Position numbers and translations under genes: made by a program
In this document: positions 10,395 through 43,900 of the stretch, piece after piece
Numbering within the stretch: position 1 is the stretch's first letter
How the letters are laid out: each line of letters opens with the position of its first letter
IMG/VR virus record: IMGVR_UViG_3300048004_000231
Span: 1-62,928 of that record
Reading direction: 5' to 3' (one strand)
DNA from: a virus
Length of the DNA stretch: 62,928 bases
The notes under the pieces: model-generated
What the model was told of the DNA's origin: nothing
Database searches by the model: none
The model's input: only the letters and a program-made list of their open reading frames with translations

Positions 10395-10548
10395 CGTATT
10401 TAAATTTTAGTTTTACTGAATTAGTGTGGAATGCTTTATTATATTCCATTTGCAGTGTTCCCGCTTCTTTAGCATTGTCTGCCTCATCTATTACTTCTCC
10501 TTTGTATATCAATTGATACACACCTGTTTTATTATACTTTACTCTCAT
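10387..10548 (-). CDS. Hypothetical small protein
   Basis: A 53-residue basic protein starting MRVKYNKTGVYQLIYKGEVI, probably a small beta-hairpin fold. The frame stays open to 10602, but the ATG at 10548 is preferred: it gives a natural N-terminus and an overlap of only 17 bases with the upstream gene. Confidence 0.6.
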   Translation of the reverse strand: MRVKYNKTGVYQLIYKGEVIDEADNAKEAGTLQMEYNKAFHTNSVKLKFKYDG

Positions 10549-10858
10549 ATATATATTCTTTAAAAGCAAACAATAGTGCGGCGCTGTTTGCATTACCGCC
10601 AATAGACCACGTGTCTAATTCATATTCAGTGTACTCAGCATCATATGTTTTCCAGTCATATATGGTGAATATTTCACCTTCAAACTCCATAATCCACTCG
10701 TATTGTACTTTATCATCACCCGACCCAATTACGGTCGGCTTACCTAGTTTAGTTACTAAGTCTCGGTAGTATATACCGTCTAGGCTACCTATCTTAAAGG
10801 TACCGTTTGCTACGTCGGTGTCGTTTTCAAACACCTGGAACTGCTCTTTTGTTGTCAT
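10532..10858 (-). CDS. Hypothetical protein
   Basis: A 108-residue, acidic, aromatic-rich protein, probably mostly beta-sheet (YEWIMEFEGEIFTIYDWKTYD). No family recognised. It is the first protein gene downstream of the tRNA-like RNA at 10874-10997. Confidence 0.65.
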   Translation of the reverse strand: MTTKEQFQVFENDTDVANGTFKIGSLDGIYYRDLVTKLGKPTVIGSGDDKVQYEWIMEFEGEIFTIYDWKTYDAEYTEYELDTWSIGGNANSAALLFAFKEYIYESKV

Positions 10859-10873
10859 AATTTATAATTTTAG

Positions 10874-10997
10874 TGGACGTGGCAGGAATCGAACCCGCGT
10901 TAATGTGTCAAACATCCTTTCTGCTGCTTGCCGATTAGCAAGTTTCAACTATTCGTCATAGTCTTAGTGGGAAACACATTCTAACCATTTCACGCCC
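10874..10997 (-). ncRNA. tRNA-like / minimal tmRNA-like RNA
   Basis: The minus strand can fold into a tRNA-like end. A 7-bp acceptor pairs GGGCGTG (5') with CACGTCC (3') and includes a G3-U70 wobble, the alanine identity pair shared by tRNA-Ala and tmRNA; the discriminator base is A. The T arm is GCGGG-TTCGATT-CCTGC. Instead of a D stem there is a short loop with GGTTAG, and instead of an anticodon arm a 7-bp helix (AATGTGT with ACACATT) encloses about 60 nt carrying two smaller hairpins. This plan matches the tRNA-like domain of tmRNA (acceptor, degenerate D loop, P2 helix, T arm), but 124 nt is far shorter than a normal tmRNA and I see no LAA-type tag. No CCA is encoded (CTA follows). A tRNA with a small insertion is the alternative. 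Confidence 0.55.
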
Positions 10998-11008
10998 AGT
11001 TTAGACCT

Positions 11009-11060
11009 GCCGTGTCATCTCCTCCCTGAGTACACACGGCGACAGTCTATTTACGTCGCC
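11009..11060 (-). other. Two stacked hairpins upstream of the tRNA-like RNA
   Basis: Two perfect 6-bp inverted repeats: GGCGAC (11038-11043) with GTCGCC (11055-11060), and GCCGTG (11009-11014) with CACGGC (11035-11040). They overlap by three bases, so they would compete rather than coexist. The first includes the stop codon of the gene at 11047. They could be a terminator-like, processing or folding signal for the RNA that follows. Confidence 0.45.
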
Positions 11061-11235
11061 AAGATCGGTGCACTGCTGCACTTGTGGCTTGACTGACGAT
11101 TTGAATTGTGTTACCGGTCTTGTGTGCGATAATGGGTACGTAGCTGTACTGCTCAACGTCGGAGCAAGTTATGCATTTTTTATACCCGAGGTTTACTCGC
11201 CCGGCCGGTATTATATTGTTACAAGAGCACCGCAT
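11047..11235 (-). CDS. Small cysteine-rich (zinc-finger-like) protein
   Basis: A 62-residue protein with CSC near residue 3 and CITC near 21, enough for one zinc site. A VPIIAHKTGNTIQI segment follows. I recall this pattern from short conserved phage proteins of unknown role. Its ATG overlaps the stop of the upstream gene. Confidence 0.65.
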   Translation of the reverse strand: MRCSCNNIIPAGRVNLGYKKCITCSDVEQYSYVPIIAHKTGNTIQIVSQATSAAVHRSWRRK

Positions 11236-22544: not shown

Positions 22545-23218
22545 TGGCTAGAATTAGTATATATCAAAAGGATACTGACATAACTAGTCAAGACAAAGTA
22601 ATAGGAACAGATTTTAACGGATCGGTTACTAAAAACTTTCCGCTTGGTGGATTAAGCAATTTTTTTAGCCGTACTATAACAGTTGGCGGACAAGTTGCTT
22701 ATCAATTTGTAGATATAAAAAAAAATGCAAGTTTAACAGAGCCAGCAGACGATACCGCTTTTTCAGCGCTTACCACTTTTAAGCTAAGTGAAATTGACAG
22801 CGCGGGACATAACGTAGAAAATTTTTTACTTGAATATGCCGGCAAAAGAATTATTATAACACAAGTTGACAATAAAAACAATTATGGCTTTTATGATGTT
22901 ACTTCGGTTATAGAAGACGAAAATAATTTAAATTACTATGACTTTATACTTAAATATGTATCTGGCCATGGTAATTTAATTTTAAATAAGTATTATACTA
23001 TAATGCTCGCCGGGGGCGAAAAAGACAAGCATTATACACACAACCAGGGCATAGCAAGTGCAACTTGGAATGTATCTCATAATTTAAATAAATTCCCATC
23101 AGTAACAGTAGTATTATCTACAGGGCAAAAAGGCTATGCTGATGTTTCTTATACAGACACAAACAACTTAACAATAACATTTACCGGTGCTGAAACTGGT
23201 AAAGCATACATGAACTAA
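22544..23218 (+). CDS. Putative tail fibre attachment or connector protein
   Basis: A 224-residue protein whose start (MARISIYQKDTDITSQDKVIGTD) resembles that of the 15478 product, suggesting a common docking module. The C-terminal 70 residues (GIASATWNVSHNLNKFPSVTVV) look like a repeated fibre-tip beta domain. It precedes two larger fibre genes and probably belongs to the same appendage. Confidence 0.65.
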   Translation: MARISIYQKDTDITSQDKVIGTDFNGSVTKNFPLGGLSNFFSRTITVGGQVAYQFVDIKKNASLTEPADDTAFSALTTFKLSEIDSAGHNVENFLLEYAGKRIIITQVDNKNNYGFYDVTSVIEDENNLNYYDFILKYVSGHGNLILNKYYTIMLAGGEKDKHYTHNQGIASATWNVSHNLNKFPSVTVVLSTGQKGYADVSYTDTNNLTITFTGAETGKAYMN

Positions 23219-23220
23219 TT

Positions 23221-24480
23221 ATGGCAATACCTTTTTTACATAATATAAATCTTAGCGGCAACGAAATACAAAACGTAAAGCTTCATAATACTTCTTCCGT
23301 CCCTGTGGCGGCAGCGGTTGGGAACCAAGGCCAATTATATTTTAACACTACGGCAAGTACAGGAGTGGATGGAACTGGTAAAAAAGTTTATATATCTACT
23401 GATGTAACTACTGCAAACACCTATGCTTATGAAGCTCTTGCTTTTGAAAGCTGGGTAAGTGATAATTTTAATAATTATTTATTACCTCTTGCGGCCAACG
23501 GAACACGAGGCGGCATACAAATAGGTTATACTGAAAACGCAAAAAACTACCCGGTTGAGTTAGATTCTGAAAAGGCGTATGTAAATGTACCTTGGACGGA
23601 TACGGTATATACACACCCAGATCACACAGGGCATGTAACCTCCGCGGCCGATGGTGCAACCACTTTAACGGTTGCTGCTATTACAGGGCAAACAGAGCTT
23701 GCTTCTGGATTAGCCAGTATAGATGAATTTGTAATTAGCGACGATGGCGTTATAAAAAGAATGGATGTAAGTGTTTTGCAAACATTTATGCAAAATAATC
23801 TTACTTTTACAACTGACACCAATACAGATACACTACAAGGTATATCTGCAGACAGTACTGACAATGATAGGTTTATCACAACAGTTGCTAACGCGTCAGG
23901 AGCACAGGAAGGCTTATCTCATTCTACTTTAAAATATAATCCAAGCTCAGAAACATTAAAAGTTACTAATTTAGTTATATCAGGCACTCAAACTACAATT
24001 AATACTGAAACAATTAATCTTGCTGATAATATTATTACTTTAAATAGTAATTTTACTGGAGACCCAGATACAGTAGTAGAAGACGCCGGTATTGAAGTTG
24101 AAAGAGGCACAGGGGCTAATGTTAAGTTGTTTTGGGATGAAAGTGAAGACGCTTGGACTGTAACTAATACCACAGGTGATTTTCAAATATTACAAGCTGT
24201 TGGCGCAGCTGCTGGTAAAATAAAAGTGCCTTTAACAGTAGATGCTTCGCCAGCTGCTGCTAATGTAACATCTGTAACTAAAACAAATAATAAATATACA
24301 ATTAATCACAGCCTTGCAACGCAAGATTTAATCATACAAATTGTTGATATTTCAGACGGAACACCTACTTATGAAACTGTATTTGCAGATATTGAAAGGC
24401 CAACTACTGGTACAATAACTATTGATTTTGCAAATGCTGTTACAGACGGCGATTATAAGCTATTAGCAACTCAAATATAA
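23221..24480 (+). CDS. Tail fibre protein
   Basis: A 419-residue Thr/Asn/Asp-rich protein. It starts MAIPFLHNINLSGNEIQNVK, a form often seen at the N-terminus of phage fibre proteins, and ends with a beta domain (TINHSLATQDLIIQIVDISD) also typical of fibres. It should sit between the attachment protein and the 1,644-residue fibre. Confidence 0.7.
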   Translation: MAIPFLHNINLSGNEIQNVKLHNTSSVPVAAAVGNQGQLYFNTTASTGVDGTGKKVYISTDVTTANTYAYEALAFESWVSDNFNNYLLPLAANGTRGGIQIGYTENAKNYPVELDSEKAYVNVPWTDTVYTHPDHTGHVTSAADGATTLTVAAITGQTELASGLASIDEFVISDDGVIKRMDVSVLQTFMQNNLTFTTDTNTDTLQGISADSTDNDRFITTVANASGAQEGLSHSTLKYNPSSETLKVTNLVISGTQTTINTETINLADNIITLNSNFTGDPDTVVEDAGIEVERGTGANVKLFWDESEDAWTVTNTTGDFQILQAVGAAAGKIKVPLTVDASPAAANVTSVTKTNNKYTINHSLATQDLIIQIVDISDGTPTYETVFADIERPTTGTITIDFANAVTDGDYKLLATQI

Positions 24481-24496
24481 TAATTAAATAAAATAA

Positions 24497-27400
24497 ATGG
24501 CAAATCGGTTTCTTAATAACATAAAGATAAACGATTCGTATACCCTGCCTACGGCAGACGGTGCAGCAGATCAGATAATAAAAACAGATGGCGAGGGCGA
24601 ATTAACCTTTATAAACCAAGGTGATGTTATTGCAGGTGAAGCCGATAAGGCTAAGTCTGTTATATTAAGGGTTAAAAACTCTACGTTATCTGCAATGACC
24701 AAAGGTCAAGTTATATGCGAAAATGTATCTATATCTCCACCAAGTGGCAACTTAATTGAAGTTGCTTTAGCTGACAATAACGTCGCAGGCAGAATGCCAG
24801 CTCTAGGTATACTAAACGAAGATTTAGATGCAGCTGGAGGTAATAAAGATGAGGGCAACGCTATTATGTTTGGTAAGGTATCGGGCATTGACACGTCTGC
24901 ATTTTCTGTAGGCGATGAAGTATTTGTAAGCGATACCCTAGGGGGGCTTACAACTACAAAACCAACTGGCGTAAAATATATTCAAAAAGTAGGCGTTGTA
25001 ATTAGAGATGACGAAGACAACGGTACAATAGAAGTATTCGGAGCAGGCCGTGTAAATGACGTACCAACTCCATTATATGTAGACCACGCTAATCAGCGTT
25101 TAGGTGTTGGAATTACAAGTCCGCAAACCACTCTTCATATGGGTGTGCAAGCCGCAAACCCGGCTAGGACCGAAGAGTTTAGATTAGAAAGTAGAACCGG
25201 TTCTGGTTTTGGAGGGAATTCTGTTGTAAATCTATACACAGGCCAATATGGAACTTCTGGAGTATATTTTGGGAATGATAGCACTTATACAAGTCAAAAA
25301 GCTAAAGTTGAGTATGTCGACTTTGATAACGCTATATATTATAGTGTTTTAGGCAATAGCATTAATTATCACTATTGGCAAAACGGTGGGTCAACAAAAA
25401 TGACCCTTAAAAATAGCTTTCTTGGTATCGGGACTACGAACCCTGGGCAAAAACTAGATGTTTCTGGAAATATTAAAATGACCGAAACCGCAGCTGCATC
25501 AGACACAGATAAGTTTGTTGTTTCTGACAGCGGAGTTCTCAAATACAGAACTGGCGCTCAGGTACTAAGTGATATTGGAGCGGCAGCGAGTTCACACAAC
25601 CACGACGATAGATATTACACCGAAACAGAGTCTGATGATAGGTTTTTAAGGCAAGATGGTTCAGGTAAAGAATTTGTTTTTGAAGTAAATGACGAAGAAA
25701 ATTTATCAGGGAATAAGTGGTATAAAATAGCCAGTGTAAATCAGGGCAATGGTGGGTTGCATATAAGAGGGTTTATAGCTAACCATGTTGAAAGTTTTAC
25801 GTCTCAAAAAATAAATCTTGCAATAAATGGCCGTGAATCGAATGACGGCTCTAATATAGAGGTGATTGGTACAGTTGACGTTCTCCATAACAATGAAACA
25901 GGTACGGACAAAGCTGGTATTAGAATTATAAAAGCAACAGATAGTACGTATGACCGTTATGACGTATATGTTAGAACTTCTAGGTATAATATGTTAAGGT
26001 TACACCTTACAAAATCTGGTAATACATCATTTTATACTTCACCAACACCAGCTACAACAGAACCTCAACCTGTTTCAGGCGGTAATGTTGAAATAGATAC
26101 CTCTAGTTTTTTACCAGGTATACATACAGTTACTGATAGTGCAGTTAGACAAGTAATTAAAGAAGGCGGCAACGTCGGGATTGGGACGACCAATCCTAGT
26201 AGACAACTAGAAGTTTCCAACACAGGGGATTCAATAATAAGAATAGCAGGGGATAGCGACAATGACACAGGAGAATTAGGAGATGCCGTACTTGAAATGA
26301 CTACTGATGGAGGAGGTCAAGGGTGGACAATAAGAAGTGCTAATGTAGGTGGAGGAACAGGTGATTTCAAAGTAAACACTTTTATAGGCGGTACTGAGTC
26401 AAATAAACTACTAATTGACAGGGACGGCAACGTCGGGATCGGAACGACAAGTCCTCAACAGAAACTTGATGTTAATGGGGATATTGCCATTAAAACTGCT
26501 ACCCAGCTTAGTTTTAATACCACCACTGGCACTCTTAGTGTTGGCGGTGACGCGGGGCAGCTCAATTTATTAAGTAGCAGTATTTTTATTAATTATACCG
26601 GCGACGTCGGGATCGGGGCTACGAACCCTGGGCAAAAACTAGATGTTTCTGGAAATATTAAAATGACCGAAACCGCTGCTACGGAAGATACTGATAAGTT
26701 TGTTGTGCTAGATTCCGGTGTTTTAAAATATAGAACCGGTGCTGACGTTATATCTGACCTCCCAACAGATAGTAGATATGTAGCAACTACTGGCGATACT
26801 ATGACTGGTGGCTTAACTATGAATAACAGCCAAATACAAATAACAGATAGTGGTGCGCAAGCTAGAATGTCGATAAATAACACCGGAACTGGCGATCCCC
26901 AAATTAATTTTCAATTATCTGCAAGCAGCAAATTTGCTATAGGCGTAGATAATAGCGATAATGATAAGTTTAAAATATCAGGAAGTTCAGCCTTAGGATC
27001 CAACGATAGAATAGTTGTAGATTCCTCAGGCAACGTCGGGATTGGGACTACCACGCCAACAGCTCCTTTGCATATACAAGGAGGAGCTACTAGTGAGGTT
27101 TTAAAAATAGAAGCAGACGCAAACCCTTATGCTAGATGGGTTGTAAATGGCACTAATGTAGGGTTTTTGCAGTTTTCTTCAACTAACGCTTATCTGTCAA
27201 ATATGTCAAACGGTTCTCTTTTATTTAGAACTAATAACACTGACAAAATGACTATCACTGGCGGAGGCAACGTCGGGATTGGAACGACTAATCCACAAAA
27301 CATATTACACCTTAAAAGCCCTAATCCTTATTTAATACTAGAGGACACTTCAAATGCGAATAAAAATAGAATTGCCAATGTAGATGGGAATATGCACTAC

Positions 27401-40982: not shown

Positions 40983-43900
40983 ATGCCAGAAATGCAAAGG
41001 GTATTTGCTAAAGGTCGCATGAACAAAGACCTAGATGAGCGAATGGTACCAAATGGCGAGTATAGAGATGCGTTAAATTTAGATTTATCCGTATCTGAAG
41101 GCTCAGACGTTGGCGCTTTTGAAAATATCAAAGGTAACAAAGAAATTGTTCATAAAGCTTATAATAGTAGTACACTTTTGTTTACTAACTGGAATAGTGA
41201 TTATATTTCAAATTTAACGGATGCATCGTGCGTAGGTGTTATTAAAGATGAAGAAACCGAAAAAATATATTGGCTTATCGCTTCCAGCGAAGTTAATGCT
41301 ATTGCTCAATATGATCAGTTTTTAGATGTAGTTATTCCTTTGCTTGTTGAAAACAAAACAATATCTAACTTTTTAAATTTTACTGCCGATAATATTATTA
41401 CTGGTATTAATATTTTAAAAGGTATTTTATTTTGGACTGATAATAAAACAGAGCCCAAAAAAATTGTTATAGCCGACTGGCAAAATTCTACAAGTACGTT
41501 CTTAAATCACTCACAAATATACGGTAGAGATTTTATTGAGCAAGATATTACTGTAATTAAAAAGTACCCTTTAACAGCCCCATCGCTATCTTTAAGCATT
41601 AGCGAAAGACAAGGAAATATAAACGCAACAATATCATACCAATTTGCGACTCTTTCTTCTGAAGGGGAATATAATAGCCTAAATAGCGAATCTCCTGAAC
41701 AAACTTTTAATTTTCCAACAAAAATGGATTATAAAGAAGGGGACACGTTAATTTTTAATTTATTAAATGATAATCAAGAATACCAAGACGACGCTGCAGT
41801 TCGAGTTGTAATAACAGAAGTTGTTAACGTTTATAAAATAAAAGCAGAAATACTTTCCATATCTGACGAAGTACCCACTGAGTTTGCCCCTTGGGAGGTG
41901 TCTTTGATTTTAGAAGACCCTATATTTGAATTTAAATTTCCTAGATTTGCTTATAGGTATAAATATAAAGACAATCAATATTCAGCCTTTTCTCCATTTT
42001 CAAAAGTTGCTTTTTTACCAAAAGAAGAATTTGAATATGACAGCAAATTAGGCTACAATACAGCGATGGTTAATTCTGTGCGTATTATTAAAATACAAAA
42101 TTTTGTGCCAAGCGCTGGCGTTTTACCTAAAGATGTTATATCTATAGATATATTATATAAAGAAACAGGTAACAATGCGGTATACAAAGTAGAAACAATA
42201 GAAAAAGATTCAAAAAAATGGTTAGATAATGAGTATCAAATAGAAAGCGAAATTATTAGTTCAATATTAGAAGCTAATCAAATTTTAAGACCTTTTGATA
42301 ATGTTCCTAAAAAAGCTTTATCGCAAGAAATTGTTGCTAATAGACTAATATACGGAAACTATACTCAGGGCTATAATATGTTAACCTCGCAAAATGAAAA
42401 ATTTAATTCTAGTTTTTCTTTTGTAATAAATCAAAACAACACATATTTTCCTTCTCCATCTATTAAATCTCAACGGACATATCAATTAGGCGTTGTTTGT
42501 GTAGATGAATATGGGCGCCAATCGCCAGTTTTTTCGTCTGAATCGGCTACAAAAATTTTAAATAAATCTTTTGCGCCGTTATCCGTTTCTATTAAAAATA
42601 AAATGGTTGGAGCCCCTCCTTTTTGGGCTAAATATTTCAAGTATTTTATAAAAGAAAATTCAAGTGAGTATTACAACCTTGCAATGGATAGATGGTATAA
42701 TGCTGAAGATGGAAATATTTGGATTTCTTTTCCGTCATCAGATAGAGATAAAATTACGCAAGAATCATTTTTAGAATTAAAAAAACAACACGCAAGTTCT
42801 ATTCCTGTAATAGAAAACGCAAAATATAAAGCTGTATCTATTTCCAATACAGTGCCGCTTTTTGTAAAAACTACACAAAAAAATAAAGGTCAAGGCTCCA
42901 TTAGCTGGAATCAAAATATTACTTCTTTAAAAGAAGGCTTTCCTTTAAAAGGCAGATTGTTTTTTTATATTAAAAACGGAGATTACCAAAAACTTTTCGG
43001 AGGTGCTGAAAACAGCAACAATAGACTAACTGTACAATTTTCTTTAACATCTAATTCTTCAGATAAATTTGAAATAGCCAATATTAATTTTTTAGGGGAT
43101 GTTGGGGTCAATGACAGCTTAGTGCAAGTAAATTTAGCATTACCGATGGACGACACTATAGATTGGACCTCCACGGATGGTGATTTTGATTCTAGAATAT
43201 CTGATGAATTGACTGTTATAATACGGGAGGACGTAGTAGAAAATAAACCTGAATTTGAAGGCAGATTTTTCGTAAAAATATATAAAGATTCTACATTAAC
43301 TAATAAAATTATAAGTCAATCAGGCGATCCTAATTACGCAATAATTCAGTCAAAAGAGCTATACAGAGTTAAGGATGCTAGCGAGGGTGCTCCGCATTGG
43401 TGGTATTTTGACGAAACCAACCCGCATGATATAGAAGGAAAAAGCGCAGACAATGAATACCATTATGAAAACGCAGGAGATGTATTTGAAAAACACCGAG
43501 TTGGATGGGGGCTTCAAGAGGGTTTTGACAAACTTGATATTACTTGGCACGGTTTTGGGCCTAAGGCAAGTAATGCGTTTTGCGATGGCAATTGGGATAT
43601 TTGGAAAAATTGGGACGAAAATAACGCAAACGAGCGTCCTCAAAAAAAATTTAGCGATGCTTTAAAAACTATTGGTACTAAATTTCAATTTAAGGGAGAT
43701 CCAACTGGCACGGTTTATGAAATTAAAAAAATGTTCCGAACATATTACACCAACGCTAACAGAAATAAAATATGGTGTAATGGAGCGGGCAAGGAGTGGA
43801 AAAGAAGATCTATAAGATACAGCATAAAATTAGATCAGCCTTTAAAATGGGTGCCTAATATAACATTAAATAATACTAATTCATCAGGGTTTATAGAAAT

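Follow-up and report, generated by a model that had tools for sequence, protein, structure and literature searches.

A probable tag-less tmRNA in a marine phage and its family of relatives: evidence of selection on the G3·U70 pair and exchange of structured cassettes in the P2 loop

IMG/VR virus record IMGVR_UViG_3300048004_000231, analysed here over its whole 62,928-base length (the window), encodes on its minus strand a 124-nt RNA (10997-10874) that is very probably a tag-less transfer-messenger RNA (tmRNA), composed of a tRNA-like domain (TLD) and a P2 helix. It belongs to a family of 101 distinct members, 65-146 nt in length, carried by related marine phages on the same strand as, and downstream of, a gene for a small zinc-knuckle protein. 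The best explanation of the material as a whole is a phage tag-less tmRNA acting on host ribosome rescue, an explanation that we regard as evenly poised.

The RNA lies in the gap between two open reading frames (ORFs; 11047-11235 and 10532-10858), and the original prediction, made from the sequence of the window, had placed and described it exactly to the base. Its acceptor of 7 bp pairs GGGCGUG (10991-10997, with G3 of the G3·U70 pair at 10995) with CACGUCC (10875-10881), which is followed by discriminator A73 (3' strand and discriminator, 10874-10881); CCA is not encoded, the next bases being CUA. Aligned to the tmRNA D-loop, a stemless 10-nt loop (AAAUGGUUAG, 10981-10990) supplies A8 and a GG at loop positions 5-6. 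The P2 helix AAUGUG/CACAUU (10975-10980 and 10902-10907), supported by covariation, is capped by a 67-nt cassette with two inner hairpins (10908-10974), of which free-standing copies exist elsewhere. An AAC linker (10899-10901), present in 70 of 81 members, joins P2 to the T stem, and the T arm, GCGGG-UUCGAUU-CCUGC (10882-10898), is canonical and supported by covariation. The acceptor with its G3·U70 pair and A73, the T arm, a stemless D-like loop with GG, and a helix at the P2 position had all been anticipated, and all are there.

Class assignment was made with Rfam covariance models, against a gathering cut-off of 47 bits (tmRNA, RF00023) and a minimum score of 29 bits (tRNA, RF00005). RF00023 matched the window RNA along the whole model (1-374, with the middle deleted) with a score of 32.9 bits (E=1.5e-11, 601 nt searched), and the tRNA model gave it 17.7 bits; against the family's own model, R1, it scored 64.9 bits. 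Other members with the GGGCGUG acceptor reached 27.9-41.3 bits with RF00023. Several other members obtained about 24-27 bits from the tRNA model, and the tmRNA model outscored it in every member compared (36.8 vs 26.2, 36.7 vs 26.8, and 41.3 vs 24.2 bits, for example). Sister RNAs of 78-79 nt from the same locus pass the RF00023 cut-off (L379, 64.7 bits; L369, 60.8; L363, 60.6) and have D-loops, such as GAUAUGGUUUUGACG, that are plainly tmRNA-like. It is this match to the tmRNA model, together with sisters above the cut-off, that identifies the family as a tmRNA TLD plus P2, and thereby upholds the suggestion that the RNA is the tRNA-like domain of a tmRNA. With canonical tmRNA it shares the 7-bp acceptor with G3·U70, A73, A8, the stemless D-loop with GG, P2 in place of an anticodon stem, and the T arm; it differs in having neither tag frame nor pseudoknots and in being only one fifth to one third as long. 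The earlier alternative of a tRNA with an insertion was rejected given the low tRNA score, A8 instead of U8, the lack of a D stem, and the lack of a consistent 7-nt anticodon loop; the insertion is placed where a tmRNA-type domain has its P2 loop. A permuted tmRNA (RF04321) was also rejected, as the 5'-3' order is normal and that model gave 13.9 bits over part of its length. ARAGORN reported nothing in the window.

A typical tag is missing, as had been claimed. Among 81 inserts, frames that open with alanine and run to a stop occurred in 25, compared with 27.1 in shuffled sequences, and hydrophobic-alanine ends occurred in one insert, compared with 0.36; a hidden tag frame was rejected because tag-like frames are not in excess over shuffles. 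Members of 68-79 nt have no room for such a frame.

Relatives were gathered using the GP88 protein and degenerate DNA patterns, and the first set comprised 81 distinct RNAs of 68-125 nt. In this pattern-based alignment the acceptor was fixed by the search pattern, and for that reason a second ASCERTAINMENT was made through the neighbouring 62-aa zinc-knuckle protein, yielding loci that do not depend on the RNA pattern. In 66 of these, the zinc-knuckle gene is followed by 1 kb or more of sequence; the RNA is carried by 41 and was not found in the other 25. Acceptor variants recovered in this way include GGGGGUG/CACCUCC, GGGAGUG/CACUUCC, and GGGCGCG/CGCGUCC, with GGGUGUG/CACAUCC as a further variant in L217. 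When the acceptor was left unconstrained in the search, most hits were ordinary tRNAs, and two (L217 and L176) were true members. An exact D-loop pattern search of viral contigs gave no match, and blastn of the members against 50,697 phage records gave partial matches only, chiefly to T-arm regions of tRNAs or tmRNAs. One apparent member of 56 nt (L129) was discarded as a false match within a longer member.

Folding of the window RNA is modestly better than that of shuffled sequences (z -2.28), and a chance origin of the fold is excluded because the relatives covary. The comparison of relatives for compensatory changes, which had been proposed along with the Rfam searches, found them in acceptor, P2, and T arm. 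In a gap-free alignment of 60 distinct sequences with inserts trimmed, 93.8% of cells in the three helices are paired (83.4% when shuffled), with 122 double-change cells (45.5 when shuffled) and a covariation score of 0.259 (0.076 when shuffled); none of 500 shuffles attained this, and no sliding control comes near the true value. Acceptor and T stem by themselves (21 distinct sequences) are 100% paired, with 20 double-change cells compared with 3.0 (0 of 500 shuffles). The sequence of P2 varies in most members while its pairing register is fixed: 69% of cells are paired at the true register, compared with 26-46% in most of the offsets tried, and P2 is fully paired over 5 bp in 29 of 61 members, where shuffling gives a mean of 2.8 and a maximum of 9.

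These data bear on whether the RNA is a functionless remnant of a full tmRNA. A full tmRNA does exist in a related phage, which also speaks for a tmRNA identity: Cellulophaga phage Calle_1 (MT732432), whose terminase is 36.7% identical to that of the window, has a 362-nt tmRNA with a complete model match (86.6 bits), a readable tag frame, and a 3' end followed, like that of the window RNA, by CUA and not CCA. Its tag (L145, MT732432 30000-60000; record positions 42950-43311), in our reading, ends in ...EVAVGV-stop rather than LAA, and the coordinates annotated for the tmRNA gene (43002-43361) are offset from those of the model match. While the hypervariable apical part of the RNAs in our family and the 25 loci in which none was found would suit a remnant, the three helices covary, the loops are near-invariant, and strand and place are fixed. 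The compensatory changes have by themselves largely refuted a remnant, which we consider very improbable, and the proposal of a degenerate tmRNA, if this means a copy in decay, is unsupported for the same reason and because 41 of the 66 loci found without using the RNA possess the gene.

Pair 3-70 behaves differently from its neighbours. It is G·U in 99 of the 101 distinct members, whereas all of CG, GC, AU, and UA occur at pair 4-69; the neighbour-gene loci hold 42 RNAs with G3·U70, one with A3-U70, and one divergent paralogue with G3-C70. In general, alanyl-tRNA synthetase (AlaRS) relies on G3·U70 and A73 as major identity elements, and a wobble pair kept beside freely changing pairs points to selection for recognition by this enzyme. 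Conservation of G3·U70 and A73 in the family would also suit a decoy or alanine donor outside ribosome rescue, one that sequesters AlaRS or EF-Tu or feeds alanine to a phage enzyme. However, AlaRS alone needs no tmRNA-type D-loop, A8, or P2 geometry, and Pfam and PHROGs searches of the nearest genes recognised no enzyme that uses aminoacyl-tRNA beside the RNA; we therefore consider such a role improbable.

What makes the window RNA longer is an exchangeable structured cassette in its P2 loop. The insert of the window RNA recurs outside any TLD as a 100% identical 75-nt copy in L087 and L048 and as near-identical copies in L068, L082, and L083, and in these free copies the closing stem differs but is again complementary. 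A single contig (L011) contains the same 28-nt core twice, once free with the stem UAGUAUG/CAUACUA and once inside a TLD with GCGUG/CGCGC. The long version of the cassette found in the window has an extra two-hairpin segment, of which hairpin 1 shows compensatory changes between copies (ACUAU/AUAGU, ACCAU/AUGGU, ACUCU/AGGGU). Many other P2 inserts are likewise interchangeable, some nested in one another, which explains the 65-146 nt spread in length, and the interval between zinc-knuckle gene and RNA is often filled with such elements. In the window, a separate stem-closed element with loop ACUCAGGGAGGAGAU (11004-11047, minus strand) is one of the shared cassettes; its loop is that of the insert in L113 and of free copies in L126 and L068. 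It forms part of a wider pool of small structured cassettes, in which the cores are conserved and the stems vary but stay complementary (also L079:1139-1189, L092:3797-3820, L062:8533-8637, and L045:7215-7274). These cassettes occupy intergenic sites downstream of the zinc-knuckle gene, are nested in some cases, and recur in the P2 loops of the TLD RNAs.

Such exchange raises the question of whether the cassettes are the real effectors. The tRNA-like end, cut by RNase P and RNase Z, might serve as a handle for processing or stability that protects the RNA and carries or releases cassettes, in the manner of a natural tRNA scaffold. The P2 caps are indeed swappable and also stand free beside the RNA, and the same island holds other tRNA-like RNAs with other acceptors. 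A handle would not need G3·U70, yet this pair is kept while its neighbours change, and the smallest members, of 68-69 nt, are almost cassette-free; the handle is, in our estimate, unlikely but a serious contender. Slightly less likely still is that the TLD acts as a carrier in a modular RNA island, with the alanyl-TLD bringing swappable RNA effectors to ribosomes or to SmpB/EF-Tu, and with cassettes of conserved core and changing closing stem moving between free sites and the P2 loops of tRNA-like carriers.

Several other RNAs of the island were recorded. A second, divergent TLD RNA lies ~1.5-1.7 kb from the first, with acceptor AGGCGUG/CACGYCU and U73 (L012:9699-9789, plus strand; L093:12695-12788, minus; L136:105-198, minus; L367:4647-4740, plus); it mostly lacks G3·U70 and so is probably not alanylated. 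Another tRNA-like family without a D stem has the acceptor AACUAG/CUAGUU (L050:8763-8860, L354:2835-2936, L346:2827-2910, and L377:2973-3056), and the mini-hairpin before its T arm covaries (UACC-GACG-GGUA, UACU-GACG-AGUA, UAAC-GACG-GUUA). A tRNA-like RNA that also lacks a D stem, with acceptor GAACAUA/UAUGUUC, occurs at L380:2786-2864 and L388:2852-2930. Outside these phages, Klebsiella phage RaK2 (L412:660-748; NC_019526 195659-195747) has an unannotated tRNA-like RNA whose acceptor of 7 bp is GCGGGUG/CACCCGC and whose T arm is canonical; no Rfam match was obtained for it at E 0.001.

Some observations weigh against a tag-less tmRNA that acts on ribosome rescue. The score of the window RNA, 32.9 bits, is below the RF00023 cut-off of 47. 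Two members (L176 and L387) have A3-U70, and the second paralogue, where phages have one, mostly shows G3-C70 and U73, so that alanylation cannot be required of every copy. Finally, the presence in the island of ordinary tRNAs, and of other tRNA-like RNAs whose acceptors are unrelated, would suit a more general role.

An RNA with a tmRNA TLD is expected to undergo tRNA-like processing, to be charged with alanine, and to bind EF-Tu and SmpB. The window RNA has very probably lost the mRNA-like domain and pseudoknots, with P2 closed instead by an exchangeable structured cassette. If it acts on ribosome rescue, it would probably be transcribed within a minus-strand block that contains genes for replication and regulation, undergo trimming in the manner of a tRNA, and then be given CCA, after which host AlaRS would charge it with alanine via G3·U70 and host EF-Tu and SmpB would bind it. 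SmpB is encoded in none of 50 related phage records, so the host protein would be the partner. Lacking a tag, the RNA is unable to complete trans-translation; it would instead compete with host tmRNA for SmpB and stalled ribosomes, and trans-translation would be weakened or redirected during infection.

The closest known case comes from mycobacteriophage DS6A, whose tmRNA consists of the TLD only (Mao et al. 2009, as cited in PMC4131195 and PMC11915505). According to the two citing sources, tmRNA in E. coli is strongly inhibited by a DS6A-like molecule whether or not this can be charged, perhaps by titration of SmpB. In view of this precedent and of the missing tag, competition with host tmRNA is the mechanism that we favour, at a strength just short of probable, and a function as an alanylated decoy is plausible. 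The RNA might instead be a tag-less rescue factor. Charged with alanine and bound to host SmpB, it would enter ribosomes that have stalled, accept their nascent chain, and help to recycle them without tagging, from which the phage would gain active ribosomes. Anatomy and conserved G3·U70 would be the same, and tmRNAs without a coding sequence (CDS) are conserved together with SmpB in some mitochondria, for which tag-less rescue has been suggested (PMC11915505). Without a resume codon, however, the step after peptidyl transfer is left unexplained, and a TLD-only RNA in E. coli inhibited tmRNA and did not replace it (PMC4131195, PMC11915505); we accordingly rate rescue as unlikely.

Both the DS6A RNA and those described here are phage-encoded tmRNA TLDs without an mRNA-like domain. 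Compared by description only, DS6A is a single case from an actinobacterial phage, whereas the present RNAs are a family conserved among marine phages whose relatives infect flavobacteria; their P2 caps vary, and their neighbour gene is fixed. In the mitochondria of jakobids and oomycetes and in Mallomonadaceae plastids (~65 bp), CDS-less tmRNAs also have a TLD without a tag frame, but these are organellar and of bacterial inheritance, the mitochondrial ones with nucleus-encoded SmpB. We know of no cassette exchange among them.

The minus-strand block around the window RNA includes a sigma-70-like protein, a DnaA-C-like protein, and GP88. Upstream of the RNA, the syntenic 62-aa gene (11047-11235, minus strand) encodes a CxC...CxxC zinc-knuckle motif with invariant cysteines C3, C5, C21, and C24; neither Pfam nor PHROGs has a family for this protein, and it has no match in 50,697 phage records. 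In each of the 103 occurrences scored (overlapping loci included), it lies upstream of the RNA and shares its strand, usually at a distance of 4 to 760 nt. In viral contigs, this family of small four-cysteine proteins has 434 related loci and adjoins the RNA island wherever scored. Downstream, a 108-aa ORF with no recognised function (10532-10858, minus strand) starts 15 nt past the RNA, and Pfam and PHROGs gave no function for the genes nearest to it. Among the matches listed, relatives of the window terminase come from phages of Flavobacterium, Cellulophaga, Tenacibaculum, and Maribacter and from one uncultured phage (32-62% identity); the matching isolates are filed under Elemovirus, Pervagoviridae, and Pachyviridae, for which reason the label 'crAss-like' was dropped. 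Four metagenome-assembled contigs matched in a genome-contig search are probably mis-binned phage, and no host can be named from them. In the contig of L053 (G020, 23207-25362), the terminase is in several pieces with in-frame stops, as in a split gene, an intron, or a frameshift.

The expectation that such an RNA would be a new way to touch host translation has to be narrowed, since a TLD-only phage tmRNA is already known from DS6A. What is new is a conserved marine-phage family with a constant neighbour gene, evidence that selection acts on G3·U70, and the exchange of cassettes. For the 2025 tmRNA database, the viruses searched were those of RefSeq (PMC11915505), so that metagenomic phages like these probably lie outside it. 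As a way for RNAs to evolve, the trading of structured cassettes between the P2 loop and free-standing sites is unusual, and it may indicate a set of phage small RNAs that are yet to be characterised. Taken alone, DS6A was a curiosity; a family that keeps G3·U70 amid changing neighbour pairs makes deliberate targeting of ribosome rescue by phages testable. Because many related phages keep the RNA with compensating mutations, it is probably a tool with which they interfere with, or borrow, the ribosome rescue of their hosts.
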